Shown piece by piece: positions 2-62,734 of a stretch of 64,000 nucleotides of DNA. The notes beneath the pieces were generated by a model. That model searched no databases, was not told where the DNA came from, and was given only the letters and a program-made list of their open reading frames with translations. This stretch comes from Tribonema minus (Eukaryota; Sar; Xanthophyceae; Tribonematales; Tribonemataceae): positions 930,001 to 994,000 of the forward strand of contig JAFCMP010000101.1 in NCBI GenBank assembly GCA_017506865.1. The letters are read 5' to 3'. How positions within the stretch are numbered: the stretch's first letter is position 1; every line of letters begins with the position of its first letter. Position numbers and translations under genes: made by a program.

Positions 2-292
2 TTGCCGCTGCCCATGCTGCGGCCACAGGTGAAGACCGGCGACATGAACCTCTACGGCAATGGCGCAAACCTAGTCGTGTACTCCCAAGGCGACACCCTG
101 CCCGCAGGGCGCACATGGACCACCAGCACCGGCAGCGCGACTGCGCTGACGACGATAGTCGACGGCAATCAGATCAGCGGCACCTTTATGCTGGGGCTGC
201 TGGGTCACTGGACCGACCCGCTGCCGTTCGACGCTGCGCAGGACGAGGTCAAGGACGCGCTGGAGCTGCTGGACAATGTCGGCACCGTCAAT
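2..292 (+). CDS. Giant gene, first visible exon (E1): start of an EVQ repeat
   Basis: Open from the window edge in frame 2. Encodes the first half of an EVQ repeat (SGTFMLGLLGHWTDPLPFDA, then VKDALELLDNVGTVN). Donor is AAT/GTGAGT after 292 (phase 0). A CAG at 26-28 could be an acceptor, in which case the exon begins at 29 in the same phase. Confidence 0.8.
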
Positions 293-3200
293 GTGAGTGA
301 GCGCTGCTGCAGTGCGCTTGCGTGCTGTTATGACGCGTGCTTACAAGTGTTGGCTTTGGGCATAAGTATATTGTGGTGTTCATGTTTACAAAGGCGGGCG
401 GTGTGGTAGCGTGGCAGGTTCAAGTCCTGTGGCGCGTTCATGTTTGTTGCAGTCGATACTTGAAGTCAGCGCAAGCGCACGTAGGCTCATCATCACAGCA
501 GCCACCACCCCCTTGCACTTGCTCTGAAGTGCAAATCATCGGAAGAGTGAACCACGCATTTATACAGTGACAATGCAGCCACGACTTTCCAGACTCAATC
601 ATCACCATGCCTGCTCTGCTCTGCTGCCACCTCTGCCGCTGATCCTGCCGCCAGGTCGTCCGCGGCTCACGCGATGGCCAGTACGGCTACCACTGGACCG
701 TGACCTTTGTCTCCAACCCCGGCTCCTTCCCCGCCGACGCGGGCAACCTCCCTCTCCTGCTCACCGACTACTCCGGCCTCACCGGCAGTGGCGCCGCCGC
801 CACGGTGTCTCCCAAGAAAGACGGCTCCGACGTGCTCGGCGGCACATTCCAGTTGAAGTTCCTGCCGACACCGACTTCAACGCCGCAGGTGACGTGCGCG
901 CTCGCCGCGAACGCGTCGCGCAACGAGGTGCGCGCCGCGCTGCAGGCGCTGCCCGGCGTCGGCGCCGTCGCGGTGAGCCGCGACGTGCTGAGCGATGCCG
1001 TGCACTGGAGCGTCACCTTCGACGCGTGCCGCCGCGTCGCCGGCGCCGATGTCTGCAACGACGGCGACGTCCCGACGCTCGGCTGGGACGACACCGGCCT
1101 CACGGGGTGCCGCAGCAACGCCCCCGACCTGAGCGTCGGCACGCAGCTGCAGGGCTCCGGCGCCGCCGCCGTGACGCCCGTGACGGACCTCACCGCCGGC
1201 GCGCCCTACGCAGTCGATCTCACGGGGCTGACGACGGGGGTGCCGGTGTACGTGAGGGTGAGCGCGCACACGGCGCTGGGGTTCGGGCGGCGCGGTCTGC
1301 CGGCGCCGCCGTCGCAGGTGCCGACGAGCGTGGCGCCGGGGCAGATGGAGCCGGTGCGGCTGCTGGCGAGCACGGCGACCTCCATCAGTGAGAGCGCGCC
1401 GCCCGCCGCGTAGGGTTAGGGCTTTGCGTGTGTAGGGTACTGCTGCAGTGTGCTGCCGAGTGCGGTGGATGGACGTGAGCTCTGTCGGTGACAGCACGCG
1501 TGCAGTGTACTGGTGTGTGTGGGGTTCATCGAGGCTCACTCTCACAGTGTACATGAATGGTTTCTGGTCAAAGGCCGCCCGTGCTGTGTGGTAGCTTTCA
1601 TGCAAGACAAACAGAAGCGCTTGTACTTCTAGTCCATGCATTCGCTTGTTTTGTAGCAAGGCTGGCTGTGGGCCTCTGCGGGCCAGGGCTTTGGTCAACC
1701 CAGCATGTAGCCACGCTCTCGCATGTGTGCCCACTGTTGGCACGGGAATCAGGACATCTTGTTCAAGGCATGCTCAATGTTGCAGCATAACCTCACACCA
1801 CCACGCCCGTGCTGCCTTACACAATCGCAATACGCATTGACTCAACCACCACCCCCCTGCACCCGCCGTCGCCCCCCCCCCGCAGCCCTGCAGTGGCGCG
1901 CCCCCACGCTCAACGGCGGCGCGCCCATCGCCGGCTACGAGCTCCACCTGGGCGAGTTCGCGGGCGACGCGCTCACCCTCGTCTACGACGGCAGCGGCGC
2001 CCCCGCCGTCACGCAGTTCACCGTCGACGCGGCCGCCTACGGCAACCTCGAGAGCGGCGTGCCGTACCGCTTTGCGGCGCGCGCCATCACGTACTGCCGC
2101 GCGCCCGCGCAGCCCGACTACGCGTGCGCCGGCGCGCTGAGCGAGGAGGCGGTGTACGCCGTGCGCGCCGCGCGCGCGCCGCAGGCGCCCGCGCAGCCGC
2201 GCCGCTCCGCGGCGACGACGCTCGTGAGCGCGGCGAATTCCGTCGATGCGCGTGTGGTGATTGATTGGGATGCGCCGCTGGACAACAGCGGCGCCGCCGT
2301 GAGCGCGTACAAGGTGTTTGCCAAGGCGCAGGGCGCGAGCAGCATGGCGCTGCTGACGACGCTGCCGGTGGCGGCGGGCGCGACGGCGTTCGACCCCGCT
2401 GTGTACGCGGCGGGCGGGCTGACGGACGGCGCTCTGTACACTTTCTTTGTGCAGGTGAGTGCTCGAGACCCGAAGGTTGCAGTAGTTTGTTGATGCTGAA
2501 GTGCTGGCTGCTACACCGCGGCTGTCACTGCAAGTACTGCCAACGTGCCTTGTGAGCAAGTCTTGATGAGCAGTATGGGCTGAAGCGGCTGACGCTGTGG
2601 CTTTTGAGTTGCTCACACTTTGAATAAGATGCTTGCGAATGCATCAGCCACTGGGCCACGGCACATTACACACGTGCCCCAGCATGTTCACGTTACTGTA
2701 AATGACTAGACACACACTCCTTTTCTCTATGAAGCATACCAGAGTGCACACATCTAATTATGTCTGCCTCTCATCCACTACATGTTCAACACGCCCTCTC
2801 ATCCACAACACTCACTTGTGCACTTTCATCTGGCAGGCTGTCAATGCCGTGGGCACATCAGCGCTCAGCCCTGCAGTGACGGTGGTGGCGGGCGTGCTGC
2901 CGGGCCAGGACGAGTCGTTTACTCGGACTTACAGCAACATGCGTCCCACCATCACCGATGTCAGCGGCTCAACCATCAGCTTCTCGTGGCCCGCGCCTGT
3001 GGACACCGGTGAGCGGCTATCAGCTCGCTTTCTTTGGTCTTGGCGCAGTGACAGGACTGTCAGGATGGCGTGGTCAGATAGTGCCGAATGTTGTAACTGC
3101 CATTTGCGTTGAAGAAAATTGCTGACTGGACGATCGTTGATCACTGACATTGGCGCATGCATTACCATACTTCAGGAACTCTACAATGAGTGCCTGATTT

Positions 3201-6200
3201 CCACTGCATCACTTGAAAATAATGGCAAAGCATGTGCAGAAGCTGTTGTGTATTTGTGTATGCTTTGGGAGGTAGAGTGCTCAGCCCCTCAAGCGCGAGC
3301 ACGCGCGGCACCATGTGCACAGGCATCTGTGCTCACACTCTGCACTCTTGCGCTTGCGCTGCACAGGCAAGACCCCCATTACCGGCTACGACCTCTACGT
3401 GTTCCCGGGCGTGGCGCTCAACACTCAGGCCGTGCCGGAGCCTGTGGTGCGCGAGGTTCAGACAGTCACAACCATGACCATGGCCACCGCCCCCGTCCCG
3501 GAGGTGCAGCTGGTCACCATCAGCGACGTGGCGTCCGGCACGTACACGCTGCGCATGCAGTCGGTGGTCACGAGGTACGAGCGCGCTTGCCGCCACTGCG
3601 CGCGATGCAGTCACGATGAGCGTCAGTTCTGTCTGTTGCTGAGAGAGCTGCCCGTTGCTGTTGAGTCACCTGGTGTGGAGTGTCACGTGTTGAGGTTGCT
3701 GGGGCTGCGCAGGGCCACGTGCCTTGCTGATCGCCTTACGGCAGTAATGATGAAGTTGTTGATGAAGTTTATCAGATGGCTGCCATGCCCAAACAGCAGC
3801 GTCAAGCGTTACAGGCACGTAGCTCGCGATCGCATCCTGACAATGTGCGTCTAAGTATAATCTCACGTGTCGGTGATGTGTTTGCAAAAGCCAGTCTGTG
3901 AGCCGAAACGACACGTACTGAATGGGCACTACAGCATGCAGCAGCCACTGACACTTGTTTTGCCTGTTATCTTGGTGTGTGCAGCTCTCCATTCTCCGTC
4001 ACCACAGCTGCGCTGAACATCGGAGACAACAGTGCTACGGTCACTGCGGCGATCACCACCGCGTTCACAACCGCTGGCATCGCTAGCTTTGCGCCGACAG
4101 CGGTGGTGACTGCGCTGGGGGGCAGTGTGTACACTATTAAGCTCAGCTTTACCGGCTACACACAGGACGTGCTTCCCACTGTTGTGGACAAGACCCTGCT
4201 CGTTGCGGCGGTGACAGCGGTGGCGGTGACGGTCGACACCACCACGGACATGGCCGGCTCCTTCAGACTGGTGAGGGCATGAACTGCTCTGCATGTTGCA
4301 CATGTGGTGATGCGCGACACGACATGCCATTGCATTGAAGTTGAAGTGCAGTGCATGTGCAGCTGCTCATTGAGCCTCGATGCTAGCAGTACAGCACGTG
4401 CCAGACTCAAGGAATGCGATGCAGTGCACTCATAGTGGCCGCCTCAGCACTTGTGCATGAGTCGAACCTCCGCTTACAGTTGCAGGCAGTATATTGATTA
4501 ATAAGCTCAACCTGTCAATTAGCATTTGTACACACAAGTTCAATGCTGCGTACAAGTGACTGCCTCCAACAATGCACCCAGCGATTGCGCGACACTCTAT
4601 GCCAGACTCTTGATCACTGTCTGATGTTCATCGCGCGCAGGCCTACAACGGCGCGGAAACCGTGGACATCCCCGCCGCCGCCACCGCCGCAGACGTCAAG
4701 CTCGCGCTCGAGGACCTCAACACCATAGGCATCGTCGTCGTCACAGCGACCCCCAACCTGCTCAACGGCGCCAAGCAGTGGGCGGTTACGTTTGTAACTG
4801 AAATCGGCAACCTGCCGCTCATGGTCGCTTCGGGGGGACGCCTGGTGGGTGTGGAGGTGGGGGCTGTGCCGGAGGTCAGGGTGACGGAGACGCTGGCGGG
4901 CACTGCTGCCACGCTGTTGAGCACTGTGGCACCTGGCGTGCGCGACTTCACGGCGACGGGGCTCACCGAGGACGCGCGCTACGCGTTCGCCGTGGCTCCT
5001 GTTAATGCAGGTGAGGCGTGCAGCACACGTGAACGTAGCCGTGCAGTGCGCGAGTACTTTGGTGACGGGGGCACATGCGTTTTTATGATGTATGAGCACA
5101 CAGGCATGCAGGCATTGGTGTGCAGTACCTGTTTGAGGCACCTGTTCAGGGTGTTTGTAGCAATGCTGACAACTTGCTCGGAAAATTCTCCGGTTGGGCA
5201 TGCTTATTCAAACGTGCACACGCCAGCAAAAACACTTTTTATGCACGTGCATACATCGCAGGCACACCCGGTTGTGGCAAGTACGCGCTGCCATTTGTAC
5301 ACAGTGCTGAAGTTTTTACGCCCTGCACAACATACACGTACATCGAGGTATCCATAATTTGTTCTTTGCACAACGACATTCCCGGCTACTCATGCACTGA
5401 CACGCACCCCACCCCCCCGTGCAGTCGGCGCCGGCGTACCCAGCCTCGCGACGCCCACCGTGGTGGCGCGCGAGGGCGCAGACGCGCGCCGCAGCACCGC
5501 CTTCGGGCCCGCCCTCCTGCGCGGCATGGCAGGCTCCATCCCCGAGCAGCAGACCATAACAGTGATCGCCGGCACCACCGGCACGGTGCAGCTGAACTTC
5601 GGCGCCGTGCCCGTGGCGCCGTTCACCATCGCGGCAGCAGCGCTCGACTCCAGCGTCATCGCGGCCGCGCTGACGGCGGCGGCGCGCGGCGCGGCGGTGG
5701 AGGTCACGCGCGACGCGACGGCGGCGGACTACGTGTGGACGGCGACGTTCGTGGGGTACTCTGGCGACGCTCCCGCTCTCGTCAGCGCGCCGGCCAGCGC
5801 AGTTACCGTCGCCGTCGCCGAGTTCATCAAGGGGCACAACAACCACTTCAGCGTCGCGCCGCGCAAGGCGAGCGGCGCGCCGGTGACGGACGTGACCAGC
5901 GCGGCGGCGTTCGCGTCAGACGCCATTTCGGCGAGCAGCGGCGCGCTGACCGCGCCGTACGACTTCAAGGGCGCTGACGTGTTCTTCACGGAGCTGTACA
6001 GGGGGCAGGGCGCGGCCGCGCGCTGGGAGTCGGACGCGGGCGTCGCCGCATACCTACCCCCCCAGCTCGCCGTCTGGGACGTCGTGCTCAGCGGCGCGCC
6101 GACCGGCGGCAGCCTGTGCCTCGCGTACACGCCGCCGGAGGGCGCGGCGAGCGCTGTCAGTGCGTGCGTCGCGTTCGACGCCACCGCCGCGCAACTCAAG

Positions 6201-54200: not shown

Positions 54201-57200
54201 CGCAGTCGCCGCGCTCGTGACCATCGCCACGGCCAACGAAGGCGAGGCGTACGGCACCACCACGCACCAGTGGTCCGTGAAGCTTGACTCCAAGCGCGAG
54301 CTGGCGACGGGCGTGGGGCAGATACAGCTGTCGGTCACGTACGGCGGTACCGCTGCCCTTCCTGCCGAGTGCTTGCCCTGGGACGCGACTGCTGAGGAGG
54401 TGGAGACAGCCCTGGAGCTGCTCCCAAATGTGGACTCGGTGCGCGTGGAGGTGGGCGGCGACAGTTTCGTGCGCACGTGGACCGTGCTGTTTGACGGCAA
54501 CGCCATGCACGACGTGCACGCCGCGCCGGCAGCAGCACCGGTTATGGATGCGCGGGCGGGCATGGTCCTGGGCCCCTGCACGCCGCTCACCACAGTTGTC
54601 GATCACGTCTCCTACGTGCTGAACCCCGTTGTCCATGACTATACGCTGAAGGCTGAGGAGATTGGCAGCAAAGGCCTGCCCATCCCATCTACTGCAGACC
54701 GTGATGAAATGGCGGAGCAGCTGTCGTACCTCCCGGCGGTGGTGCCTGAAGTGCTGGTGTACACGAGCGACGCGGACGAGCACGATGGCCTCACGTGGTA
54801 CCTCAGGTCAGTTTTCTAGCGCCGATGCTGAGTGCGCAAGGCGTTGTGCGTTTGCTGGCGGCAGTGGAGCGCGTTGCGAGATTCAAGCAGCTCTCAGCTG
54901 GCGATTTTTGTTGCCGAGAAGAAGGTTTGATGCAATCACTGTTGATCAGTCAGGGTCAAAACAGGAGCAAGACAGCTGCTGCTTCAATGCCTCATCAAAT
55001 GGCGCAGAAGCTTGCGTGAGGCAGCAGGGCTGCGCTGCTGTTGACATTTTTGCGTATGCTGCAATGCCACTGTTCAAATGACATTGCAGCTCACATTTAT
55101 GGCAGCAACTCAACTGGAAAAAACTCACAAGCACATATGCCGCGCCTCAGAAAGCGCGTGTTGTTTGCTACTGCATGCCTCACTGACAGCATCATGCCAC
55201 CTCAGCTTGCTAACATTGCAAACTCACACAAGTCGCCGTGCCCACTCCCCTGCATGCGTGCAACTGCAGCTTCAGCAACAACGATGGCGACGTCCCGCCC
55301 CTCATCTGCTTGCCGGAGGCAACCTTTGTGGGCGACTGCTCCGTCACAACGCTCATAAACGGCAACACCATCGGCGGCCACTTCTACCTGGGCGACAGCG
55401 CCGAGATACCCTGGAACGCCACGTCGGACCAGATGGCCGCGGCGGTGCAGGGCGCGGGCATGGGCGCCGTTACGGTCACGCGCAGCGACGCGGACGCGCG
55501 CGGCGGTTACACGTGGAGCGTCACCTTCACGGAGCTCCCCGGCGACGTGCCGCCCATGACGGCGTACAACAAGCTCACGGGCTACAACGCCGACGTGCGC
55601 GTGGAGCAGGTGGTGCAGGGCAACGCGCTCGGCGGCACGTACACGCTGGCGCTGCACATGGAGGAGACGGAGCCCATCGCGTTTGACGCCGACGCGGCGG
55701 ACGTGGAGGCCGCGCTGGAGGCGCTGGACGCGGTGGGCGACATTGTCGTCACGCGCGGCGCCGCCTCGCCCGAGGGAGGCTCCGTCTACACCATCACCTT
55801 CATCAACGCGGACGTGAACGTGGGCGACGTGGAGGCGCTGGTCGCAGACGTGACAGCGCTCACCGGCGCCGGGCGCGCGCTGCTGGTGAGCGAGGCCGTC
55901 AAGGGGTCGGAGGGCGTGGGCAGCGCCGTCAAGCTGAGCTTCCAGGCGCCGCTCAACTGCGCGCAGAGCCAGGTCGCGGACGGGCGCTGCGGCGACGCGG
56001 TGGACCGCTACAGGGTGGAGTGGGACACGGCGGCGGCGTTCAGCAGCGTTCCGCGCAGGTCGACGGAGCTCGCGCCGGCGGCGCTGCTGACGCAGGTGCA
56101 GCGCGTGCGCACCTCGTACGCGACGTCCGGCACCTTCCAGCTGGCGTACGGCGACGCAACGACGGCGCCGCTCAACGCCGCCGCGTCCGCGTTCGAGGTA
56201 CGCGTGGCGCTGGAGGGCCTGGACGGTATCAGCACCGTCAGCGTCGCGCGCGACTACAGCTACGAGGAGCGCGGCGCCGTGCTGCTGGTGACCAAGGGGC
56301 ACGACCACGCGACGTGCGTGACGGTCGGCACGTGCGACTACCTCGCCGCCTGCGACCTCGTGCGTCTGGACGGCGTCGCCTACCGCGTCAGCGCGGGCCA
56401 CGTGAGCGCCGTGGGCGTCACCACCGTGCTGCTGTCCAGCATCGCTGACTGCGCCGTTGGCGTCGTGTACGGCGGCGACATTGCGCAGCCGACGGCGTAC
56501 GCGGCGCAGACGTGGGCGCGCGGCTACGAGTGGAGCGTCACCTTCCTTGCGATTGACAGCGGCGCCGCGCCGCTGGCGCTCACGAGCCCGCCACACAAGT
56601 TCGCCGGCAGCGCCGCTGCCGTCTCCATCTCTGGTCTGGACTGTGTCGGCTGCTACTACGTAGGCGCGCCTCCCGACCTGCCTCTCACGCTGGGCCGCAC
56701 GTACTACCTGCACGTGATGGCGCACAACGCCATCGGCTACAGCGACGCTGCCGGCGCGCCGGTCGTCAGCATTGTGCCCAACCAGGTGCCCATGAAGCCG
56801 AGCATCGACGCGGAGGTCATGTCCGGCACCAAGGTGGCAGTGCACTTCTCGCCGCCCGCGCAGTCGGCCGGCGACATCTGGGGCTACAGGGTGCAGTGGG
56901 ACACGGCGGTCACGTTCGCCAACGCCGTCGCGCCGGGCGACGACGACTGCACCATGGCGCCGGGCACGGACGCGGGCAGCTGCGTCGCCACCGCCGGCCT
57001 CATCGTCGGCGACAAGCCCTTCACGCAGGTGGTCAAGGGCCTCAGCCACAAGCAGTACTACTTCCGCGTGAGCGCGCTGGGCGCCGTCGCGGCGCAGGCG
57101 GTGGACCCCGACCACGACCCGCCGGACAACACCAACTGGAGCGACACGGTGAGCGCGACGCCCACCAACAAGCCGCCCACGAGCCCCGGCGACGTGGTCG

Positions 57201-60200
57201 TGTACGTGCTGGACGGCGCAACGCTGCAGGTGCACGTGGAGGTGCCCACGGAGACAGGCGGCGCCACCATCACCAACTTCGTCTTTGAGACGGACACGTC
57301 CAGCACGTTCTCGGCGCCGGTTCCGGTAACGGTCCCCGTCGCAAACCTTCCCGAGCTGTACGAGGGCGGCCCGCTCGTGTACCACATCGGCGGCCTGCAG
57401 GCGGGCGTGCCGTACTACGTGCGCGCGTACGCGCAGTCGAGCATTGGCAACAGCGCCACGTCCGTCGCCGTCAACAACCCCGCGGTCCCCTCGCAGCTGG
57501 CGCCCGCGCCGGCGGATGCGGTGGCGGCGTACGTCGACGTGCCTACGACGCAGCTGCACACGGCGGCCACGGTGGTGTGGTCGCCGCCGCCAGACACGGG
57601 CGGCGCCGCCGTGTCGGGGTACAGGGTGGAGTGGTGGCAGGCGACGGCGGTGACGCACGAGGTGCAGGTGGTGAGCGTCAAGTGGCCGCCGACGTACAAC
57701 GTCGCCGGTTCGGCGGACACCCTCATGCTGCAGTTCGACGGCGCGGCGGTGTACCAGCAGTTCGGCGTCGGCCTCTCCGAGGTCGACTTCAGGGACGGGC
57801 TCATGAACATGGGCATCAAGGGCGACATCTCGTCCGGCGGCGTAGACTTCCTGCCAGTCGGTCACATCGTCGTGAACCGCACCAACATCAACATCGACGA
57901 GGGCTACGCCTACAGGGTCATGTTCATGGATGAGCAGCTCAACCCTGGGGATCAGCCGGAGATTGTGGCCACGAGCAGTACCAGTTTCATTGCCCACGGC
58001 AGCGAGGCGGTGGTCAAGCAGGTGGTCAGCGGCGTGCGCGCGGGGGGCAACCCGGAGGTGCAGCTGATCGCTGTGGACGGCACCAGTGCTCCGCAGGGGT
58101 TCTGGCGCGCGCAGTTTGGCAACTCCACTTTTTCGACTTACCTCTGGGCGGATGCGACGGGTGTGCAGGTAAGCTCCCTTTCCACACACTTTAGTGTCTG
58201 CGTGTAGTGTAATAGTGGCATGCGCATGCAATCAAGTTGTGACCGTTGATCAGTGCTGTGCAGACATGTGACTTGATACGGGTACTTCAGCTGCAGAGCC
58301 CGTACAACGGGTTGTTGTAAAAACTTCTTCGGCTCTTGCTTTGTCCTGCCAACAAGACCTGTGTGGCTGAAGGCATTCCATGCAGCCGACAAATGATAGC
58401 CTGCCATTGGGCGCTTCCTTGGTGCACTGCACTGCACGTGCCAGGTGCGCAATGGGGCACAGTACGAGAAGGTTTAAAAGTTTGCCAACTACGGCTGTCA
58501 GCCAACTGCAGTGTTGACAGCTCAAACTGATGACAGCATGTCTCTTCTACCGCCATGCCGCATGTAAGCAGCATCTGCTCACTGTCCCCAATGGCCGTGT
58601 GTGAATTACCGACAGGTGGAGGCAGCACTGCAGGGCCTCTACACCCTGGGCGACCTGTCAGTAACGCGTGTCAACCCTGATCCGCTTGAAGTGGGTTACA
58701 AGTGGCTGGTCACCTTCATTACGCCAGTCGGCGATCGCGGCGCACTGGTGGTGGACGGTGCCTTCCTGTGGAACGCAGAGGGTGACGCCACCATCACCGT
58801 GTCCGATGGCAACAACGCTGTGTATCCCAGTGACTACAAGCCGGCGTCCAGCGTGTCCAAGCTGCTCTGCCCTCAGTGCGTCATCGGCGAGACGCCCGTC
58901 GGCTACAGGAGCGTCGACTTGACAGCTGACAAGCTCAGCTACACAGGTGATTTATCGGGGGTGATGCACTGGGGGGTTGGTTGCGCTGCCTGTTTGTGGC
59001 TGCTGAGGTGGTGCTGCTTTGAAGCTGAAGAACTGATTGCTGCATCACTTGTACGCCCTTAAAACACGCATCGCCTGCCGCTGAAAGCTACTCTGTGCTC
59101 ACACATTCTTTGTGCCTGCTGTGTGCCCGCTTGTTGCCGTGCAGTCACTGGGCTCACACCAGGCGCCGAGTACACCATTGCCATCTCTGCGATCAACGCG
59201 CATGGGCAGGGCATCCGTGCCATCGCCGCCACCAACGCACCGCTCAACTACCTCACGCCCCCCGTCACCGTACCGGGCCCGCCCACCAGCGTGAGCGTCG
59301 CGACGAAGGGGTGGGCTGTGAACGAAGGCGACGGCCTAGGGGATGGCCAGCGGCTCATAGTCACTTACAGCCCGCCGCTGGCGGATGGCGGCACCGCTGT
59401 GACGGCGTACAAGGTGGAGCTGGACCCCACGCCCACGTTCGACAACCCCATCGCCGAGGAGTTCCGCTGCCCCAGCTGGCCCGACTACTCGACGTGGGTG
59501 GTGGAGGTGAAGCCGACGGGGGGCAGCACGGGGGGGTACTTTTACCTCAAGCTCGTGCACGGCGGCACTGCGCTGACAACGGACCCGATTCCGTACAACG
59601 CCGTCGCGCAGGCGGAAGATGAGGTGGTTCGCAGGCTAGACCTCAAGACTGCGCTGCTGACCTGCACGCTGAACGGGAACACATGCCCTGCAGGGGTTCG
59701 CTTCGAGCAGTCGGGGTCGATGCAGATGAAGCTCAACATGCTGGCATCGCTCGACGATGGCGTCCTCGTCAGCCGCCAGGACGTCAACGGCGGTTACCGC
59801 TGGACGGTGACGTTCCTCGACCCTGGCGACGACTTTGTGCTCTCGGTCGCTGACGCCACACACATGTCGGGCTACTTGGTCACGGCGACAAAGGTCCTGG
59901 ATGGTCACGTCTACAACAAGTGTGTAGGCGCCATGGTGGTGCCGACCACCGGGGGGCTGGTGGCGGGCGAGGCGTACTACGCGCGCGTCACTGCGTACAA
60001 CCGCATCGGTTACGGCAGCGTGTGGACGGCGCCTGGCACGGCGCGCCCCATGACGGTGCCGGGGCTCCCGACGACCGTCACCTTGGATAAGAACGACGCC
60101 ACCAGTCTCAAGGTGAGAGGCGCTTGTGCATCTGATCATGTCATCAATTCAATGGTTTGAAAAATGTAGCGCATGGGGTACGCGAAGGTCAACGTCATAG

Positions 60201-61437
60201 CCGCGCACGTGCCTGCAGTCAGTGTACCGCCTGCTGGCGCCATGGTCTTGCATACACTTTCAATGCCGTAAGTTACGGAGCTGCAATGCATACGTTCCCT
60301 GCCAGCGGATCGCTATTCTTGCGCTGCAGCTGTTGTTTGCTCATTGTCGCTTCTGTCATTAGCAAGCATCTAACTTTGTTGCTCATTGTCGCTTCACTCA
60401 CCACCAGGCATCTAACGTCACTCATGATATCTGTTCTTTGTCAACCGCAGGTGGTGTTCAGCCCGCCCTCCAACGATGGGGGCGGCGTCATCATCAGATA
60501 CGTCATAGAGCTGGCGACCAACGCCGGCTTCACCACCAACTGGCAGGAGGTCCCCTACATCCCCCCTGCCACAGGCGCGCCATTCCACAAGGTCCTCACA
60601 GGCCTCGAGAACGGCACCGCCTACTACGTGCGCGTGCGCGCGTGCAACTCCCTGGGTTGCGGCCCACCGCAGACCTCGAGTCCGTCGTTCCAGCACCCCT
60701 ACATGGCGCCCTCCGCGCCCACCGGCGTGCGCCTCGCCGTCACCTCGGACAGCATGCTGACGGTGTCGTTCGCGCCGCCGACGACCGACGGCGGCGACGC
60801 CGTCACCAGCTACATCATCACCTGGGACGTGTCCGCCTACTTCAACTCGCTGACGGGCACGCCGCACCAGGGTTCCACCACGGTGCAGGGGGCTGGCGCG
60901 GGCTCCGTCACGCTCACCTACCTGTCGTCAGGCTCGCGCTACTACGCCAAGGTGGCCGCGGTGAACGGCGCCAGCGCGGGCGTCGCGCGCATATCATCGC
61001 CCGACAGCGCATACCCGAGCAAGCAGCGGCCGGGCAAGCCCGTGGGCGTGGCCCTCGCCAGCACCAGCGCACAGACCATCAACGTCGCGTGGCAGTTCCC
61101 GCTCATACCGTGGCACGGCATACCGTGCTCGGGGACGGCCGCCGCGCCGGTGCAGTGCCCCACGGCGCCCGGCGGCACGGTGGCGTCAGACGGCGGTGAC
61201 GCCATCACGCACTACGAGGTGCAGTGGAGCCTGTTGAGCTCGTTCAACGTGCTGTACGCGAGCGGCCCGCTGGACGCCACCAGCCGCTCGTACACCATCA
61301 CGCAGCTCACATCCGGGCTCAAATACTACGTGCGCGTGGTCGCCGCCAATACGGTGGGGTACGGCGCGTTCTGCGAGTTTGGCGGCAACACGTGCGACAC
61401 GGCAGCGGGCACGCGCCTGTCCAAGACCGTCACGTGA
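2..61437 (+). CDS. Giant multi-exon FN3/EVQ-repeat/filamin/PA14 protein (5'-partial, 33 exons)
   Basis: Thirty-three exons join in a single frame from the left edge to TGA at 61435-61437, giving 16,084 residues; the N-terminus is outside the window. All 32 introns are GT-AG, 198-680 bp long (19 phase 0, 5 phase 1, 8 phase 2), and nearly every junction falls inside a recognisable repeat that is completed by the next exon, which is strong evidence for one transcript. Domains: about 36 FN3, about 60 EVQ repeats (unassigned, ~90-110 residues), several filamin-type Ig repeats, three PA14 domains and about 20 small GD modules. No kinase, protease, transmembrane segment or signal peptide is visible in this part. 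FN3, filamin and PA14 are known adhesion, scaffold or carbohydrate-binding folds, so an extracellular adhesive or structural role is inferred. Splice sites were set by eye and individual boundaries could be a few bases off. Confidence 0.85.
655..1387 (+). CDS. Giant gene exon E2: EVQ repeats and end of an FN3 domain
   Basis: Acceptor CCAG/GTC at 654. Completes the E1 repeat (GYHWTVTF), holds a second repeat (GGTFQLKF; ALQALPGVGAVAVSR; HWSVTF) and the closing strands of an FN3 (YVRVSAHTALGFG). The next FN3 is opened and cut by the intron at its B strand (STATSI/TLQW). Donor GTGAGA at 1388, phase 1. Confidence 0.85.
1886..2454 (+). CDS. Giant gene exon E3: FN3 domains
   Basis: The acceptor follows a C-rich tract (CCGCAG/CCCTG). 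Encodes an FN3 (LQWRAPTLNGGAPIAGYELH) whose closing strand contains a Cys pair (TYCRAPAQPDYACAG), then a second FN3 (VVIDWDAPLDNSGAAVSAYK) cut after YTFFVQ. Donor CAG/GTGAGT, phase 0. Confidence 0.85.
2837..3008 (+). CDS. Giant gene exon E4: FN3 junction
   Basis: Acceptor GGCAG/GCTG. AVNAVGTSALSPAV completes the FN3 of E3, and TITDVSGSTISFSWPAPVDT opens the next. Donor ACCG/GTGAGC, phase 1. Confidence 0.85.
3367..3574 (+). CDS. Giant gene exon E5: FN3 C strand and a doubled EVQ unit
   Basis: KTPITGYDLYVFPG continues the FN3 of E4, then two EVQ strands 16 residues apart (EVQTVTTMTMA and EVQLVTISD) lead into GTYTLRMQ of an EVQ repeat. So an EVQ repeat begins inside the FN3 domain. Donor AG/GTACGA, phase 2. 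Confidence 0.8.
3985..4270 (+). CDS. Giant gene exon E6: EVQ repeat
   Basis: Acceptor GTGCAG/CTC restores frame as Ser. Encodes the body of a divergent EVQ repeat (SVYTIKLSFTGYTQDVLP) and the start of the next (DMAGSFRL). Third-position GC looks lower than in neighbouring exons. Donor CTG/GTGAGG, phase 0. Confidence 0.75.
4641..5010 (+). CDS. Giant gene exon E7: EVQ repeat and FN3 close
   Basis: AYNGAETVDIPAAATAADV then ALEDLNTIGIVVVTA and KQWAVTFVTEIGNLPLM complete the repeat begun in E6. It returns to FN3 closing strands (DARYAFAVAPVNA). Donor GCAG/GTGAGG, phase 1. Confidence 0.85.
5425..6880 (+). CDS. Giant gene exon E8: four EVQ repeats
   Basis: Starts with the FN3 G strand (VGAGVPSLATPTVV), then an EVQ repeat (5540-5810), an unassigned linker (5820-6070), a divergent repeat with a Cys pair (6080-6340), a repeat introduced by two EVQ strands 15 residues apart (EVQSVTVKG, EVQSIAITG) with a DTDDD acidic stretch (6400-6670), and a fourth that stops at GYT/W. 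Donor TG/GTGAGC, phase 2, cuts the W-x-V-T-F strand. Confidence 0.85.
7361..7436. repeat. Degenerate tandem ACTTCAA array in intron 8
   Basis: Repeated AACTTCAA, CTTCAATGA and ATCAACA blocks lie just upstream of the exon E9 acceptor. The same heptamer and its complement TTGAAGT are scattered through introns and exons. Confidence 0.6.
7453..7719 (+). CDS. Giant gene exon E9: EVQ repeat
   Basis: Acceptor CGCAG/GTGG restores Trp and WVTFTGDQGDLENM of the E8 repeat. A new repeat follows (EVQQVAITGGTP, GSFTLSYG, ALQALQSVGRVDVT) and is cut at FEVTF. Donor CAG/GTGAGC, phase 2. Confidence 0.8.
8280..8910 (+). CDS. Giant gene exon E10: EVQ end, filamin half and PA14 domain 1
   Basis: The acceptor at AACAG/GGAC was chosen because it restores R-DLGGDV, the expected end of the E9 repeat. 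Then GAYAPLHTGPYQVAVSQ resembles the last strands of a filamin repeat, followed by PA14 (see separate entry). Donor CAG/GTACGT, phase 0, inside PA14. Confidence 0.8.
8521..9546 (+). other. PA14 domain 1 (across intron 10)
   Basis: GGLIAQYFDNQWLLGPP, IDFDWGAGAITAFGRDYVSA, LRLRADDGARLFINH, VVLEYKEETGAASVQLRWSS and, after the intron, IPSSALFY follow the order of PA14 domains (Y-F/W-x-N-x-W start; D-D-G-x-R-L-F/W-I/V centre; A-x-V-x-L-x-W-S end). PA14 is a beta-barrel often involved in carbohydrate binding or adhesion. Confidence 0.8.
9520..9915 (+). CDS. Giant gene exon E11: PA14 end and filamin repeat
   Basis: The acceptor follows a long C tract. VIPSSALFY ends PA14 1; GSPWAVDVVPGALT, FIIQAKDALGNDL and GGGQYRVVYTATKAGAYALS form an almost complete filamin/ABP280 repeat with the typical A-K-D-x-x-G-N strand. 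Donor GGCAG/GTGCGC, phase 0. Confidence 0.8.
10596..14762 (+). CDS. Giant gene exon E12: filamin repeats with nested EVQ repeats, and PA14 domain 2
   Basis: Long 4.2-kb exon. A filamin repeat (CSPFAVTVSPGP, VQAKDAHGNN, GVYTVIYTVPRAGSYAVTV; 10596-10935); a filamin first half (VQARDAFGNL, 11155-11330) interrupted by an EVQ-like repeat and closed by GGEYPVTYTVWYKGLYTLEI (11580-11650); another first half (ITVQVRDVAE, about 11775) followed by several EVQ repeats and closed only at GDGLFRVDFTPVVAGHYALTV (13255-13320); a further filamin repeat (LQAKDQFGNP); PA14 2; a filamin first half (FTITARDAAGN); and a GD module (LQRGDTVVIGG). Donor ACG/GTGAGC, phase 0. Confidence 0.88.
13655..14190 (+). other. 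PA14 domain 2 (divergent, Cys-containing)
   Basis: GGLLATFYRDTG, DYFSVAWEGEVLGPVTSDVT, VRASDAVRLTVGGAVVID, ILLEFVAGADAAAVSLQWSH and VPASALYYTRALSGSP. The middle has an added Cys-bearing stretch (FCPAGYGCDATR; AYGCPADY), and the usual D-D-G centre is replaced by S-D-A. Confidence 0.75.
14873..14904. repeat. Exact 16-bp tandem duplication in intron 12
   Basis: GATGCACTGCTTGGTC occurs twice head to tail. Confidence 0.8.
15303..15826 (+). CDS. Giant gene exon E13: filamin close, EVQ repeat, filamin open
   Basis: SRGTYAITVKTPA finishes the filamin repeat whose YKPT strand ends E12. An EVQ repeat with several Cys follows (GTFTLCSAPATC, CTWTVTFAAARG), then VPGDASPAATTARGVG and FVVQSKDAVGND open the next filamin repeat. 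Donor ACAG/GTGCGT, phase 2. Confidence 0.82.
16198..20871 (+). CDS. Giant gene exon E14: filamin, PA14 domain 3, then FN3 domains
   Basis: Filamin close (GDGAYDVAYVPTVAAP); two EVQ repeats (16375-17090); filamin open (FTIEARDRFGNP, 17265-17320) split by EVQ repeats and a GD module up to about 18140; filamin close (RYSASYVTPRV); PA14 3; then the switch to FN3: NATWAPPADDGGDDIDSYLV with a nested EVQ repeat (18970-19290) closed by FSVRISAENSAGLG, an uninterrupted FN3 (19495-19830), and an FN3 with nested EVQ repeat and GD module (19835-20740). The last FN3 is cut at SSVT/K. Donor AA/GTGAGT, phase 2. Confidence 0.88.
18336..18800 (+). other. PA14 domain 3
   Basis: GSGLLGELWNNRWIYGDS, RIDFAWSAAATITDTGMDYI, VRVNDGARLWVDGALLFDKF, IVLEFRENYGTAAVRLSWSS and VPSQRLFYGRDPISGSPFAV. 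It is the closest of the three to domain 1 and is again followed by a G-S-P-F-A-V filamin-type opening strand. Confidence 0.82.
21281..22849 (+). CDS. Giant gene exon E15: FN3 domains with nested EVQ repeats
   Basis: YKIEWDTTPDF continues the E14 FN3 (closed by YHVRIFAYNAYGF). The next FN3 (GGRQVTSYRVEWD) is split by two EVQ repeats (DDVQSVTVSSAA; QQVVTLAASG) and closed by YHVRVSAYNGVGF at about 22515. A third opens and carries AEVQMVTQTG; the exon ends within that repeat (NVDAA/R). Donor AAG/GTCAGT, phase 2. Confidence 0.88.
23243..24488 (+). CDS. Giant gene exon E16: EVQ repeats and FN3 domains
   Basis: MATALNALSTIGTVSVSR and GYAWLVTFLNNAGNQPKL complete the E15 repeat; a second EVQ repeat (SEVQTITAVAS) follows; FN3 close YYTRVSAYTANGWG; a whole FN3 (IKVVWAAPESDGG to YFVRVSASNSVGYS); then a new repeat (ETQVIDIVAG) cut after TDTPET. 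Donor ACG/GTGAGT, phase 0. Confidence 0.87.
24793..25209 (+). CDS. Giant gene exon E17: EVQ repeat end and FN3 start
   Basis: VAAKLLAIGTAGAVSVQR supplies the helix and V-S-V-x-R strand expected after E16. The repeat ends in a divergent region with a Cys, and an FN3 opens (ASMSVSFKADAAADKYLVEW). Phase 0 at both ends. Confidence 0.82.
25732..27219 (+). CDS. Giant gene exon E18: FN3 domains, one with a Ca-binding-like loop
   Basis: FN3 close (YYVRVRAHSISNGYG); an FN3 (KLVVSWKAPAVD) with a nested Cys-containing EVQ repeat (26200-26560), closed by YYVRVSALRDIDGDGVYDAG, which carries an EF-hand-like acidic loop; a further FN3 (LIVTWTPPTDTNGATITSYM to MVRVRAEDAS); and the opening of the next, cut at TQWK. 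Phase 0 at both ends. Confidence 0.87.
26650..26685 (+). other. EF-hand-like acidic loop inside an FN3 domain
   Basis: Twelve residues DIDGDGVYDAGE have Asp at 1, 3, 5 and 9, Gly at 6 and Glu at 12, as in a canonical EF-hand or dockerin calcium loop. They directly follow the Y-x-V-R-V-S-A strand, where the FN3 F-G loop should be. No flanking EF-hand helices are visible. Confidence 0.5.
27231..27253. repeat. GCT/TGC microsatellite in intron 18
   Basis: An uninterrupted TGC/GCT run lies right after the E18 donor, with a second shorter TGC run about 25 bp further on. Read through, it would add an Ala tract, but frame then meets a stop. Confidence 0.75.
27500..35563 (+). CDS. Giant gene exon E19: 8.06-kb exon of FN3, EVQ repeats and GD modules
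   Basis: Encodes 2,688 residues without interruption. Seven or eight FN3 closing strands can be read (YYIRVSALNTLGYG, YYARVSARTVLGYG, HYVRVFAANVEMG, YYARAYATNAVGDG, WYVRVSAYNAIGYS, IFARVAAVSAIGTG, YAARVAAASTAGEG). Most of the FN3 domains are split after the V-E-W-D strand by one or more EVQ repeats. GD modules lie near 29290-29490, 30280-30480, 30540-30745, 34010-34230 and 34245-34450. The exon ends in an FN3 A-B strand (SSSELE). Phase 0 at both ends. Antisense open frames here are shadows of the GC-rich code. Confidence 0.92.
36083..38803 (+). CDS. Giant gene exon E20: EVQ repeats and GD modules
   Basis: VTLLPTAEPVDEYVIEWTTD continues the FN3 opened in E19. The rest is EVQ repeats (GSFTLAYNG with GYTWVVTF; GSFRLQLGSEL; SVELSFQDH with AWLVEF; GSFRLRVGHEV) and GD modules at about 36440-36610, 37835-37990, 38055-38260 and 38265-38440. 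No FN3 closing strand occurs in this exon. Ends GATDDVQ. Phase 0 at both ends. Confidence 0.88.
38863..38966. repeat. 52-bp imperfect tandem duplication in intron 20
   Basis: Two 52-bp units, both starting GCCAGCTGATTTGA, differ at 8 positions by my count (about 85% identical). Confidence 0.75.
39172..39684 (+). CDS. Giant gene exon E21: EVQ end, FN3 close and FN3 open
   Basis: VTRSGDRMSAAYFYGFIYTI continues directly from DDVQ of E20 (V-x-V-T-R strand). An FN3 close follows (YTVRASARNARRGYG), then an FN3 opening (LEWSPPERDGGQRVDGYFVE) that runs into THEVQE. Phase 0 at both ends. Confidence 0.85.
39938..40090 (+). CDS. Giant gene exon E22: EVQ repeat core (smallest exon)
   Basis: 51 codons: VALNFRSGDEVKARSGTFTL, TADLPWDISASDMGVAVHGI, GELE. 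This is exactly the first two thirds of an EVQ repeat, placed inside the FN3 opened in E21. Phase 0 at both ends. Confidence 0.82.
40558..42135 (+). CDS. Giant gene exon E23: EVQ repeats, FN3 and a GD module
   Basis: VGLNPVVVTR and GYRWSVTFRAWRGDLGLM complete E22; a second repeat begins LEVQSVAVVTRSG; FN3 close YFARVAAHNSRGAG; FN3 open LHVAWSPPAATYPGQVTAYV, then two EVQ strands 14 residues apart and a repeat; a GD module at about 41590-41790; and a further repeat cut at EVSVDR. Donor GG/GTAAGC, phase 0. Confidence 0.87.
42515..42537. repeat. Poly-C tract before the E24 acceptor
   Basis: 23 consecutive C followed by TG and seven more C, then GCTGCAG. It forms the polypyrimidine tract of intron 23. 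Shorter C runs end introns 2, 7 and 10. Confidence 0.85.
42554..42913 (+). CDS. Giant gene exon E24: EVQ end and FN3
   Basis: The acceptor follows a 23-bp poly-C tract. VANGYGYTWIVTFVSDLGDL completes the E23 repeat; the FN3 closes with YYARVRSGGDEG; the next opens at SDTSIK. Phase 0 at both ends. Confidence 0.85.
43253..44182 (+). CDS. Giant gene exon E25: FN3 domains
   Basis: An FN3 without insert (AIWSYPITPAADGGAPITNY to RYVRVQAYNGYDWS), a second (LLVEWAAPSTE to YYVHVSALNAMGFS) and the opening of a third (VPEMDGGDSLRGYRVEWDAL), which then runs into non-FN3 sequence ending TNEIQT. Phase 0 at both ends. Confidence 0.88.
44536..47647 (+). CDS. Giant gene exon E26: EVQ stutter, EVQ repeats and GD modules
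   Basis: Begins with four tandem 13-14 residue EVQ units (see repeat entry). EVQ repeats follow (YQVTFDG; YKWDISFPCG; YVWSVTFMTREG; FQYSWDVHFT; GYTWTVTFDS; GYTWLITFLRDKEG) with GD modules near 45285-45490 and 46371-46600. No FN3 motif is seen. The first part has lower third-position GC than the rest. Donor ACAG/GTATGT, phase 1. Confidence 0.87.
44560..44691 (+). repeat. 13-14 residue EVQ stutter (four units)
   Basis: The Gln codons of DEVQ, PAIQ, DEVQ and NEVQ begin at 44569, 44611, 44650 and 44689, so spacing is 42, 39 and 39 nt. Each unit is a single beta-strand-like E-V-Q-x-V/I followed by a short polar turn. Confidence 0.7.
47872..48557 (+). CDS. Giant gene exon E27: EVQ repeats, relatively Cys-rich
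   Basis: VLLGATLVDSNHAF finishes the E26 repeat; the next repeat has FQLKFNGLGSTVCVHWDATD, MSVTRSSPDTS and GYSWYIMF; the next starts DDCSSKHCKDG. The internal Cys residues could pair. Splits at TLGQQ, phase 0. Confidence 0.82.
48930..49219 (+). CDS. Giant gene exon E28: EVQ repeat
   Basis: VDVSMSIPDQYGTVQWVVTF completes the E27 repeat; a new one starts IQELQKGSTSMSGSFTVDYG and is cut in its helix (DESAD/R). Donor CAG/GTACGC, phase 2. Confidence 0.82.
49608..54806 (+). CDS. Giant gene exon E29: 5.2-kb exon of EVQ repeats and GD modules, one FN3 close
   Basis: FRLKLEEMTTISRVQVVRQQ completes the E28 helix and R strand. About eight to ten EVQ repeats follow (for example GGSFALAFDGQQTGPVRY; GYVYTLTFRGQPG; GYTWDVAFVGSKV) with GD modules near 50060-50240, 50905-51110 and 51610-51810. 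The only FN3-type closing strand is YSVRAAAYTDLGYG at about 53565. Three 13-residue EVQ units follow at 53692. The exon ends in the W-x-V-T-F strand (LTWYL). Donor AG/GTCAGT, phase 2. Confidence 0.88.
53692..53808 (+). repeat. 13-residue EVQ stutter (three units)
   Basis: DEVQTLTLGATHR, DEVQAVVSSAPHF and VEVQLLTVARAPL start at 53692, 53731 and 53770, exactly 39 nt apart. The first two units share the same 12 bases GACGAGGTGCAG. Confidence 0.8.
55270..58168 (+). CDS. Giant gene exon E30: EVQ repeats and four FN3 domains
   Basis: SFSNNDGDVPPL completes the E29 strand; EVQ repeats with GYTWSVTFTELPGDVPPM and VYTITF; an FN3 (CGDAVDRYRVEWDTAAAF) with a nested EVQ repeat and a GD module (56275-56480), closed by YYLHVMAHNAIGYS; two uninterrupted FN3 (GYRVQWDTAVTF; ITNFVFETDTSSTF to YYVRAYAQSSIGNS); then FN3 VVWSPPPDTGGAAVSGYRVE with a further nested repeat. 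Donor GCAG/GTAAGC, phase 0. Confidence 0.88.
58616..58946 (+). CDS. Giant gene exon E31: EVQ repeat end
   Basis: VEAALQGLYTLGDLSVTR and GYKWLVTFITPVGDRGAL complete the repeat opened in E30, followed by a C-x-x-C pair (LLCPQCVIGE) and a strand leading back into FN3. Donor ACAG/GTGATT, phase 1. Confidence 0.82.
59145..60112 (+). CDS. Giant gene exon E32: FN3 domains with nested EVQ repeat
   Basis: VTGLTPGAEYTIAISAINAH closes an FN3; the next (LIVTYSPPLADGGTAVTAYK) holds a nested EVQ repeat (GGYFYLKLVHGG; GYRWTVTFLDPGDDFVL) and closes with YYARVTAYNRIGYG; a further FN3 opens at NDATSLK. Donor AAG/GTGAGA, phase 0. Confidence 0.87.
60337..60420. repeat. 42-bp imperfect tandem duplication in intron 32
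   Basis: TTGCTCATTGTCGCTTC and GCATCTAAC recur with a 42-bp period just upstream of the last exon. The second copy also contains a CACCAG that looks like an acceptor but leads to no coding frame. Confidence 0.7.
60451..61437 (+). CDS. Giant gene terminal exon E33: three uninterrupted FN3 domains
   Basis: VVFSPPSNDGGGVIIRYVIE to YYVRVRACNSLGCG; LTVSFAPPTTDGGDAVTSYI to YYAKVAAVNGASAG; INVAWQFPLIPWHGIPCSG to YYVRVVAANTVGYG. Ends LSKTVT then TGA at 61435. No membrane anchor is visible. The stop overlaps a possible donor (CAC/GTGAGC at 61434), so a further exon cannot be excluded. Confidence 0.82.
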   Translation: MVFSPPSNDGGGVIIRYVIELATNAGFTTNWQEVPYIPPATGAPFHKVLTGLENGTAYYVRVRACNSLGCGPPQTSSPSFQHPYMAPSAPTGVRLAVTSDSMLTVSFAPPTTDGGDAVTSYIITWDVSAYFNSLTGTPHQGSTTVQGAGAGSVTLTYLSSGSRYYAKVAAVNGASAGVARISSPDSAYPSKQRPGKPVGVALASTSAQTINVAWQFPLIPWHGIPCSGTAAAPVQCPTAPGGTVASDGGDAITHYEVQWSLLSSFNVLYASGPLDATSRSYTITQLTSGLKYYVRVVAANTVGYGAFCEFGGNTCDTAAGTRLSKTVT

Positions 61438-62734
61438 GCGCACGCACGCTCTGCTTCTCACTTAGTGTAGCAACTCTCTCAGACAACACACATGCGCAGG
61501 TGCCGCTGCATGAGCATCGCGCACCACCATCACGACATGCAACACTGCTAGCAGCGGCACGCGCATCGATGACCCCTCTTCCCCTCCGACCACCCAGATG
61601 CCATTTAGCCGTGGTGTCCGGAGACATTACGTGTTTGCATGTGAGTGTGTACCCACCGTTACACGTGCCATGTTGCCGCCCCTTCCATGGGTGAGTACCA
61701 GCCTGCTGCGCGCTACAGCGCCGCCGCAAGGGCACGCATGCTAAGCGGCTGCACCCGCTTTCCTGTGTGCTCTGTGCGAGCCACCATGGCTGTGGCCTGC
61801 TGTGGACCCGAACAAGGCATGCTGCAGCACTAGCTGCAGCGATTTTGCTGGCGAGGGGGCGCTGGCGCCGGCTACACTGCCGCTGCCGCCCTCCTGCCAA
61901 TGTACCATAGCAATTGGGTGGCTAGATCCGTGCGTGCGACAGCGTAGCATTGGTTGAGAGGGTCCCCGGCTGGGTTGACCCCTTGTGTTCAGCTAATACA
62001 CACGTCTGGCTGTACATGAAGTTGTGCCTTCGGTGTTGTGTTGCTGGGGTTTGCAGGCTGTAATGCCATGATGCAGTGCTTCACTCTGCCTATGACATCA
62101 TGTGCTGCACTCATCCATTTGCATGCAGTTGCCATTTAGCATGCATGTACGCTTGAAATGCGTGCAATGACTTGAGCAGCACACCACGGCTGTTCCATGC
62201 ACCCACAGCATTCCTACTCCACGCATGCATGCACCATGTGCTGTGCTCTGCAAGTTCGTGTGCCACGGACGTCCTCGTGACTTCAAATAAGCAGGAAGCA
62301 TCTGACACATGGCAAATGTGACCTTCCTTGGTGCACACATCCACCTTTCCCCCCACGAGCCCAGTACGCAGTGCACCGCCAGCTCCATCACACTGAGTTC
62401 CTTCAGCGTCATCTAGCTAGCACGCCACTCATATATGCAGCGGAAGCCCCGCAAGCTAATGTTGTCTTCAATTGCTTCTTGTATTCAAACCCCCACCAAG
62501 GTGCTGATTGCAAGAATGCCAGAGTCCAGTGCGAAATGGCCATCAAAAAAATACCAGTACATGCATCACAGGCGATCAAGAGATCCGTACTGTACTGCAC
62601 GCATGCATGCCAGTACCATGAGCAAGCAGCACAACACCACAGTGATCAGCAACAAGGCCGCAACCATCATCCAGTCACAGCAGCGGGACGCAGCAATGAA
62701 AACGCCAACGCAGCATATTGTCTCTTGTTGCTTC
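61438..62734. other. Convergent intergenic region (both 3' UTRs expected here)
   Basis: About 1.3 kb between the stop of the giant gene and the stop of the minus-strand gene. Only short open frames without domain signature or phase support. No tRNA, transposon or clear AATAAA signal was seen; polyadenylation sites cannot be placed by eye. Confidence 0.6.

Follow-up and report, generated by a model that had tools for sequence, protein, structure and literature searches.

A gene model of at least 16,116 residues for a probably secreted, giant modular protein in which a phage-related repeat appears to be nested within FN3 domains

Does the DNA between positions 2 and 61437 of the 64,000-nucleotide stretch analysed here (the window) form one gene encoding more than 16,000 residues, and what kind of protein would such a gene make? 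Our computation supports the gene model itself, its continuity as a single gene, its domain content, and a recurring order of FN3 half, EVQ repeat and FN3 half along the protein. Among the models that computation alone can offer, one gene of at least 16,116 residues is the best supported. We consider it probable that this gene, which begins beyond the left edge of the window and extends to 61437, codes for a giant modular protein of at least 16,116 residues and 1.65 MDa that is secreted and forms a surface fibre, presumably in a protist or an alga. Should the model be right, an exon-rich gene of a microbial eukaryote would be transcribed and spliced, and its product, larger than 1.65 MDa, secreted.

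The locus was modelled with a Viterbi gene finder, using a coding model trained on the long open reading frames of the window, GT-AG introns of at least 120 nt, and splice tables that were seeded with the canonical donor and then retrained. Intron penalties of -14 and -20 gave 33 exons and a penalty of -28 gave 32, and at all three the model ended at the TGA at 61435-61437. An early run that combined a weak penalty with 45-nt introns cut the region into 225 pieces and continued through the stop to 63943; it was dropped as over-splitting. The earlier note on this DNA had placed 33 exons by hand, ending in TGA, and the independent gene finder returned the same exon count and the same stop. From base 2, the 33-exon model comprises 48,351 nt of coding sequence, i.e. 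16,117 codons including the stop, or 16,116 residues; the coding total of the hand-placed exons, 48,255 nt, lies 96 nt below this figure, so that a few borders differ. The suggestion that the gene starts beyond the window was borne out, exon 1 (1-292) being a fragment at the left edge of a gene that begins upstream.

From its introns and domain content, the window is taken to be nuclear DNA of a eukaryote. All exons lie on the plus strand. The introns measure 198-680 nt (median 393 for the 32 introns of the model), and GC content is 0.678 in exons versus 0.510 in introns. Stop-free exons are forced by the gene-finding method; single open frames, the longest of 2,712 codons, occur in the window independently of the model, and the codon signal keeps to one frame over most exons. 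When splice sites were scored leave-one-out against alternatives within 200 nt, the donor came out on top for 29 of the 32 introns and the acceptor for 21, a ranking in which site strength is partly built in, since it uses sites picked by a model with a seeded donor. The weak borders are the donor of intron 2, at the end of exon 2 (655-1387; rank 13 of 40), and the acceptors of introns 12 and 15, which leave uncertain starts to exon 13 (15303-15826; rank 21 of 25) and exon 16 (23243-24488; rank 17 of 18). Exon 22 (39938-40090) is absent at the highest intron penalty. The shorter exons toward the left edge are exons 4 (2837-3008), 5 (3367-3574), 6 (3985-4270), 7 (4641-5010) and 9 (7453-7719), with exon 8 (5425-6880) among them; farther along come exons 17 (24793-25209), 20 (36083-38803), 24 (42554-42913), 27 (47872-48557), 28 (48930-49219) and 31 (58616-58946). 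A run of C at 42515-42546 (32 nt, 90% match) directly precedes the acceptor of exon 24. Tandem arrays in the window are short (80 nt at most), and searches of the window for tRNA genes and for Rfam matches found none.

Pfam was searched over 28 of the 33 exons (exons 2, 3, 7-21 and 23-33), and three families stood above their gathering scores: fn3 in 12 of the 28 exons, PA14 in three (10, 12 and 14) and Filamin in three (11, 12 and 14). PA14 lies at about 8524-8895 in exon 10 (8184-8910; E 2.9e-20), followed by Filamin at about 9619-9876 in exon 11 (9520-9915; E 4.4e-10), while exon 12 (10596-14762) carries Filamin repeats (E 4.9e-30) as well as PA14 at about 13854-14135 (E 7.9e-8). Exon 14 (16198-20871) combines PA14 at about 18341-18751 (E 2.4e-18) with fn3 (E 2e-21) and Filamin (E 3.5e-6). 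Matches to fn3 begin with a partial one in exon 3 (1886-2454; E 2.1e-5) and continue in exon 15 (21281-22849; E 4.3e-19, the best stretch ending at profile position 42 of 84), exon 16 (E 8.2e-18), exon 18 (25732-27219; E 5.5e-10), exon 19 (27500-35563; E 1.1e-19), which at 8,064 nt is the longest, exon 21 (39172-39684; half a domain, E 1.3e-5), exon 23 (40558-42135; E 8.7e-8), exon 25 (43253-44182; E 1.4e-9), exon 30 (55270-58168; E 3.5e-12) and exon 32 (59145-60112; E 3e-9), ending with three C-terminal stretches (E 6.2e-27) in exon 33 (60451-61437), which holds the stop codon. Exon 29 (49608-54806) carries an array of EVQ repeats, and exon 26 (44536-47647) also lies in the EVQ array. Internal models at an iE of 0.01 gave 62 matches for EVQ, 35 for the N-terminal half of FN3 and 30 for its C-terminal half. 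The backbone of the protein would be an FN3 chain; a stretch of filamin-type Ig repeats, together with PA14 domains, lies closer to the N-terminus.

For the 16,116-residue fragment, the calculated mass is 1,651 kDa and the pI 4.6. With an average of only 1.9 for the most hydrophobic 19-mer, no clear membrane helix is seen. No actin-binding domain was matched in the 28 of 33 exons scanned with Pfam, and the likeness to filamin is one of the repeat only. Type I polyketide synthase giants carry ketosynthase and acyltransferase domains, neither of which was found in the same 28 of 33 exons, and the protein does not qualify as one of them.

A hint of where the protein acts comes from its asparagines. 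The coding sequence from 2 to 61437 encodes 27 N-x-S/T sequons, compared with a mean of 67 in shuffled sequences and a minimum of 42 among 300 shuffles. Serine or threonine stands at position +2 after asparagine 28 times, versus 51-85 times at the other 11 offsets tested, so only +2 is strongly low. The simplest cause of such a position-specific depletion would be selection against N-glycosylation in the endoplasmic reticulum (ER), and on this ground we infer secretion, although something else may underlie the depletion. PA14 domains occur in adhesins. In a secreted protein, the FN3/filamin chain would supply length and extensibility, PA14 and EVQ domains would bind glycans or neighbouring surfaces, and the whole would most likely serve as a cell-surface, cell-wall or flagellar-coat fibre.

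Among the alternatives, the one that survives best, though we still think it rather unlikely, is that the protein is not a secreted fibre but an intracellular, titin-like scaffold, such as one in the cytoskeleton or flagellum. With the N-terminus missing from the window, neither a signal peptide nor a membrane anchor is visible, and FN3 and filamin repeats do occur in intracellular giants. Titin, an intracellular sarcomeric protein built of I-set Ig domains and a kinase, and the other FN3/Ig muscle giants resemble the giant protein in their long chains of FN3/Ig-type beads and their megadalton size. They also differ: titin is about twice as long, its kinase and I-set domains have no counterpart in the 28 of 33 exons scanned with Pfam, and PA14, EVQ and the sequon depletion all point outside the cell, PA14 and the scarcity of S/T at +2 fitting passage through the ER.

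EVQ is present in about 62 copies and makes up much of the protein outside the Pfam-matched domains. Its core follows the pattern GTFxLxFxGxxTxxLxYDAxAAxVxAALxALxxVGxVxVTR...GYxWxVTF. Pfam has no model for it: at E 0.01, none of its families matched more than a single one of 38 copies, and NCBIfam gave no match for four sequences tested. In the PHROGs collection of phage families, nine of the 38 copies matched phrog_10909, a major tail protein family, and seven matched a tail sheath family, all at E 0.001 or better. A profile built from the 38 copies matched the tail tip cage protein gp23 of mycobacteriophage Bxb1 (9d93) at E 1.6e-38, the Bxb1 major capsid protein (9d9w) at E 7.5e-6 and the Bxb1 tail tube protein gp19 at E 0.0016. 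By tblastn, the EVQ consensus found nothing at E 0.01 in phage records, although profiles do find phage proteins. A representative repeat of 99 residues (55571-55867, plus strand; PHROG major tail protein E 6.9e-9) was modelled by AlphaFold2 with a mean pLDDT of 73.6, and the eleven best Foldseek matches of this model in the PDB were all chains of the mycobacteriophages Bxb1 and Patience, at weak E-values of 0.011-0.14 and in some cases with an rmsd near 10; in the viral library BFVD, the best match was a phage major tail protein, again weak (E 4e-4). We regard EVQ as related by sequence similarity, and less surely by predicted fold, to the Ig-like domains of mycobacteriophage tails and capsids. 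The Ig-like domains of Bxb1 gp23, gp19 and capsid are part of virion proteins, whereas EVQ occurs here in about 62 copies in a eukaryotic giant. In phage Douge, Ig-like domains of the capsid and tail tube bound mycobacterial cell-wall glycans (PMC13033339); EVQ may bind glycans as well, if the Douge domains are of EVQ type.

Outside this locus, the EVQ family was found in phage tail and capsid proteins and in long open frames of bacteria, mostly planctomycetes, so that a major constituent of the giant protein that lacks a shared Pfam family recurs in phage virion proteins and planctomycete long frames. EVQ-type repeats were seen in at least four bacterial loci (two of Pirellulaceae, one of another planctomycete and one of Pararhodobacter) and in ten viral contigs. 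In the planctomycetes, i.e. the two Pirellulaceae contigs and the third planctomycete, the repeats belong to frames that measure 2,147, 2,137 and at least 967 codons from stop to stop, and this group is described as known for giant genes (PMC5352709). The FN3-half models matched none of the 14 sequences (four bacterial loci and ten viral contigs) with EVQ-type repeats, and the planctomycete loci, among the four bacterial loci examined, differ from the giant protein in being without FN3 halves of its kind. The Pararhodobacter frame (L003, 1243-13578) runs stop to stop for at least 4,112 codons and contains five EVQ-type repeats.

Profile searches with EVQ also raised the idea of a stramenopile-like host in which the protein helps to build tubular flagellar hairs (mastigonemes) or some related filament outside the cell. 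A profile of 20 copies matched OCM5 and the tubular mastigoneme protein of structure 9ufe at E 2.7e-4 and 1.5e-3, respectively; with the 38-copy profile, however, these matches weakened to E 9.6e-4 and 0.018. The similarity is weak and extends over about 90 residues, and the two 9ufe chains are only 368 and 366 residues long, against the 16,116 residues of the giant protein. In addition, 9ufe was absent among the 50 fold matches listed, from a library that may not include it, and no paper on the structure was among the matches listed from the open-access literature. We give this identification little chance and retain the more general reading of a secreted surface fibre.

Along the sequence, 16 of 29 intervals leading from an FN3 N-half to the next C-half contain EVQ, compared with two of 29 linkers leading from a C-half to the next N-half (P 1.3e-4). 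Intact FN3 domains mostly show N-to-C gaps of 17-45 residues (11 of 13), the interrupted ones gaps of 146-2726 residues, and the linkers free of EVQ (27 of 29) measure 4-41 residues. Of the 62 EVQ copies, 38 fall in paired FN3 intervals, six in linkers and 18 in neither, most of these last in the PA14/filamin region, where the FN3 halves lack partners. An opened FN3 would hold one to four EVQ copies, and one doubtful interval holds 13 over 2,726 residues. The Pfam fn3 model, which is independent of our internal FN3-half models, points the same way: of its 15 best stretches, nine are confined to one half of the domain and six run through, and the half stretches end at profile positions 37-42 or begin at 41-54 of 84, with one of the nine cut by an exon edge. 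An example is found at 27764-28366 on the plus strand, where internal HMM matches place an N-half at 27764-27868, EVQ at 27941-28135 and a C-half at 28325-28366.

The order of these matches suggests a single point of insertion for EVQ, midway through FN3. A structure prediction of a whole nested FN3-EVQ unit gave a mean pLDDT of 46.3 and was unusable, so the nesting rests on sequence order, and the two FN3 halves would then be expected to fold around their insert. A single nested unit had no relative in the viral contigs and matched no PDB chain better than E 0.04. Among the open-access titles and abstracts listed, none described an FN3-with-EVQ design, an absence that is weak evidence. With moderate confidence, we propose a nested-domain giant in which an EVQ-type domain has repeatedly been inserted mid-FN3 within one secreted eukaryotic protein, giving it phage-type Ig-like arms; the FN3 chain would carry its EVQ arrays as side arms, whose geometry is conjectural. 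A fixed insertion site would explain why standard annotation often finds half an FN3 domain, and it would offer a testable route by which a linear bead chain gains side arms. A further small beta-type domain with the pattern GDxIxIGG is seen in places, e.g. at 29294-29473. Its internal model gave 11 matches at an iE of 0.02, of which the six strong ones are its training set; two copies lie cleanly between EVQ halves, and three sequences tested had no Pfam match above cut-off. Some EVQ repeats may hold this third domain in a loop.

All of this presupposes that the exons belong together. The earlier note had offered phase compatibility at every junction and divisibility of the total by three in support, but both are built into any hand-made model and the argument is circular. 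We therefore removed the frame constraint and ran a frame-blind Viterbi search, in which the frame could change freely at each intron and splice preferences were generic and untrained on the model, the chance level for keeping the frame being one third. The search found 32 introns, of which 28 preserved the frame at a splice weight of 1 (binomial P against one third, 3e-10) and 23 of 32 did so at a weight of 0.5 (P 9e-6). At a weight of 0, with only GT and AG required, the number was 18 of 32 (P 0.006) or, under the highest penalty, 17 of 31.

A separate line of evidence comes from repeats that are split by introns. Repeat models were built from copies touching no junction (48 EVQ, 28 FN3 N-half and 26 FN3 C-half), the junction-spanning copies (13, 5 and 2, respectively) being excluded, and a junction was counted as bridged when the joined exons scored at least 5 bits more than either side alone. 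By this held-out measure, 20 of 32 true junctions were bridged versus 51 of 418 same-phase decoy joins (Fisher P 4e-10), and 10,000 random sets of partners averaged 3.3 passes and never exceeded 10. Pfam domains span three further junctions, namely 12 (Filamin, below cut-off), 13 (Filamin) and 17 (fn3), and one also spans junction 31, where the held-out gain was 4.7 bits, just below the threshold; at junction 7, a weak fn3 match (E 0.029) runs across. Eight of the 32 junctions (5, 7, 9, 10, 11, 21, 25 and 26) are without a discriminating bridge. The earlier statement that nearly every intron interrupts a repeat was accordingly too strong. Two other measures were set aside. When partners were ranked by raw bridging score, only 11 of 32 junctions had the true exon on top and scoring above zero; interchangeable repeats make such scores uninformative, and the ranking was replaced by the gain test; a looser self-similarity criterion was passed by 31 of 32 true junctions, but also by 355 of 418 decoys, and was rejected as evidence.

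These decoys are also an argument that our model has fused at least two neighbouring genes encoding similar repeat proteins, since repeat arrays make false joins plausible: 51 of 418 decoys gained 5 bits, similar stretches span 355 of the 418, and the eight junctions named above offer nothing that discriminates. Several observations nevertheless make such a fusion improbable. All 32 gaps fall within 198-680 nt, with none larger, and as many as 28 of 32 introns preserve the frame when nothing constrains it. DNA self-matches, moreover, are few and weak (nine at E 1e-5, with identity of at most 84%, the longest being 158 nt at 72%), which rules out recent amplification or gene duplication. A single gene of more than 16,000 codons, as first proposed, remains the best model in view of frame continuity, bridging measured against decoys, uniformly short introns and a convergent neighbour. 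That the locus is instead decayed or misassembled and makes no protein is very hard to credit, for although only one sequence is at hand and its stop-free exons were forced by the gene finder, the open frames as long as 2,712 codons, the codon signal in one frame along most exons, the position-specific sequon depletion and the lack of long or near-identical repeats that could mislead assembly all speak against it.

In size, the protein belongs with known giants. Titin has about 35,000 residues and PKZILLA about 45,000. The claim that the new protein already rivals the largest known was overstated, as green-algal proteins of 22,244, 21,004 and 18,533 residues appear in a published list (PMC6681478). 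In the same list, Chromochloris Cz02g22160.t1 (18,533 residues) and Bathycoccus XP_007509537.1 (16,310 residues) are given as unknown proteins, and most of the other algal giants are polyketide synthases (PMC6681478). In size alone, these two unknown proteins can be likened to the giant protein. Some bacterial proteins exceed the eukaryotic giants, according to another source (PMC11573180). Size alone is no record, and the known kind to which the protein belongs is that of giant modular repeat proteins.

As to where the gene ends, the stop codon sits in a donor-like context, CAC/GTGAGC, with a score of 4.5, and five of the 32 donors in the model score lower. Continuation of the gene beyond 61437 through this donor was held unlikely, as no exon was added at any of the three intron penalties, 680 nt is the upper limit of the modelled introns, and the next gene is convergent. 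The last exon of this neighbour, at 62735-63164 on the minus strand, matches Pfam OST3_OST6 at E 6.7e-6 by itself (26.2 bits, against a cut-off of 27), and joining it to an upstream exon at about 63869-63772, also on the minus strand, improves the match to E 4.5e-8 (33.3 bits); two exons were seen, separated by an intron of about 607 nt across which the frame fits. The OST3/OST6 family is that of an oligosaccharyltransferase subunit. Given the convergent gene and the absence of any modelled intron above 680 nt, 61437 is the most probable end of the giant gene, although the OST3/OST6 gene could conceivably be nested in a longer intron of it. About 1.3 kb separate the stop codon from the end of the OST3/OST6 gene at 62735, leaving room for a 3' UTR. 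TGTAA, which as the usual poly(A) signal of green algae would be no more than a hint at the host, occurs just once on the plus strand of this interval, at 62059-62063.
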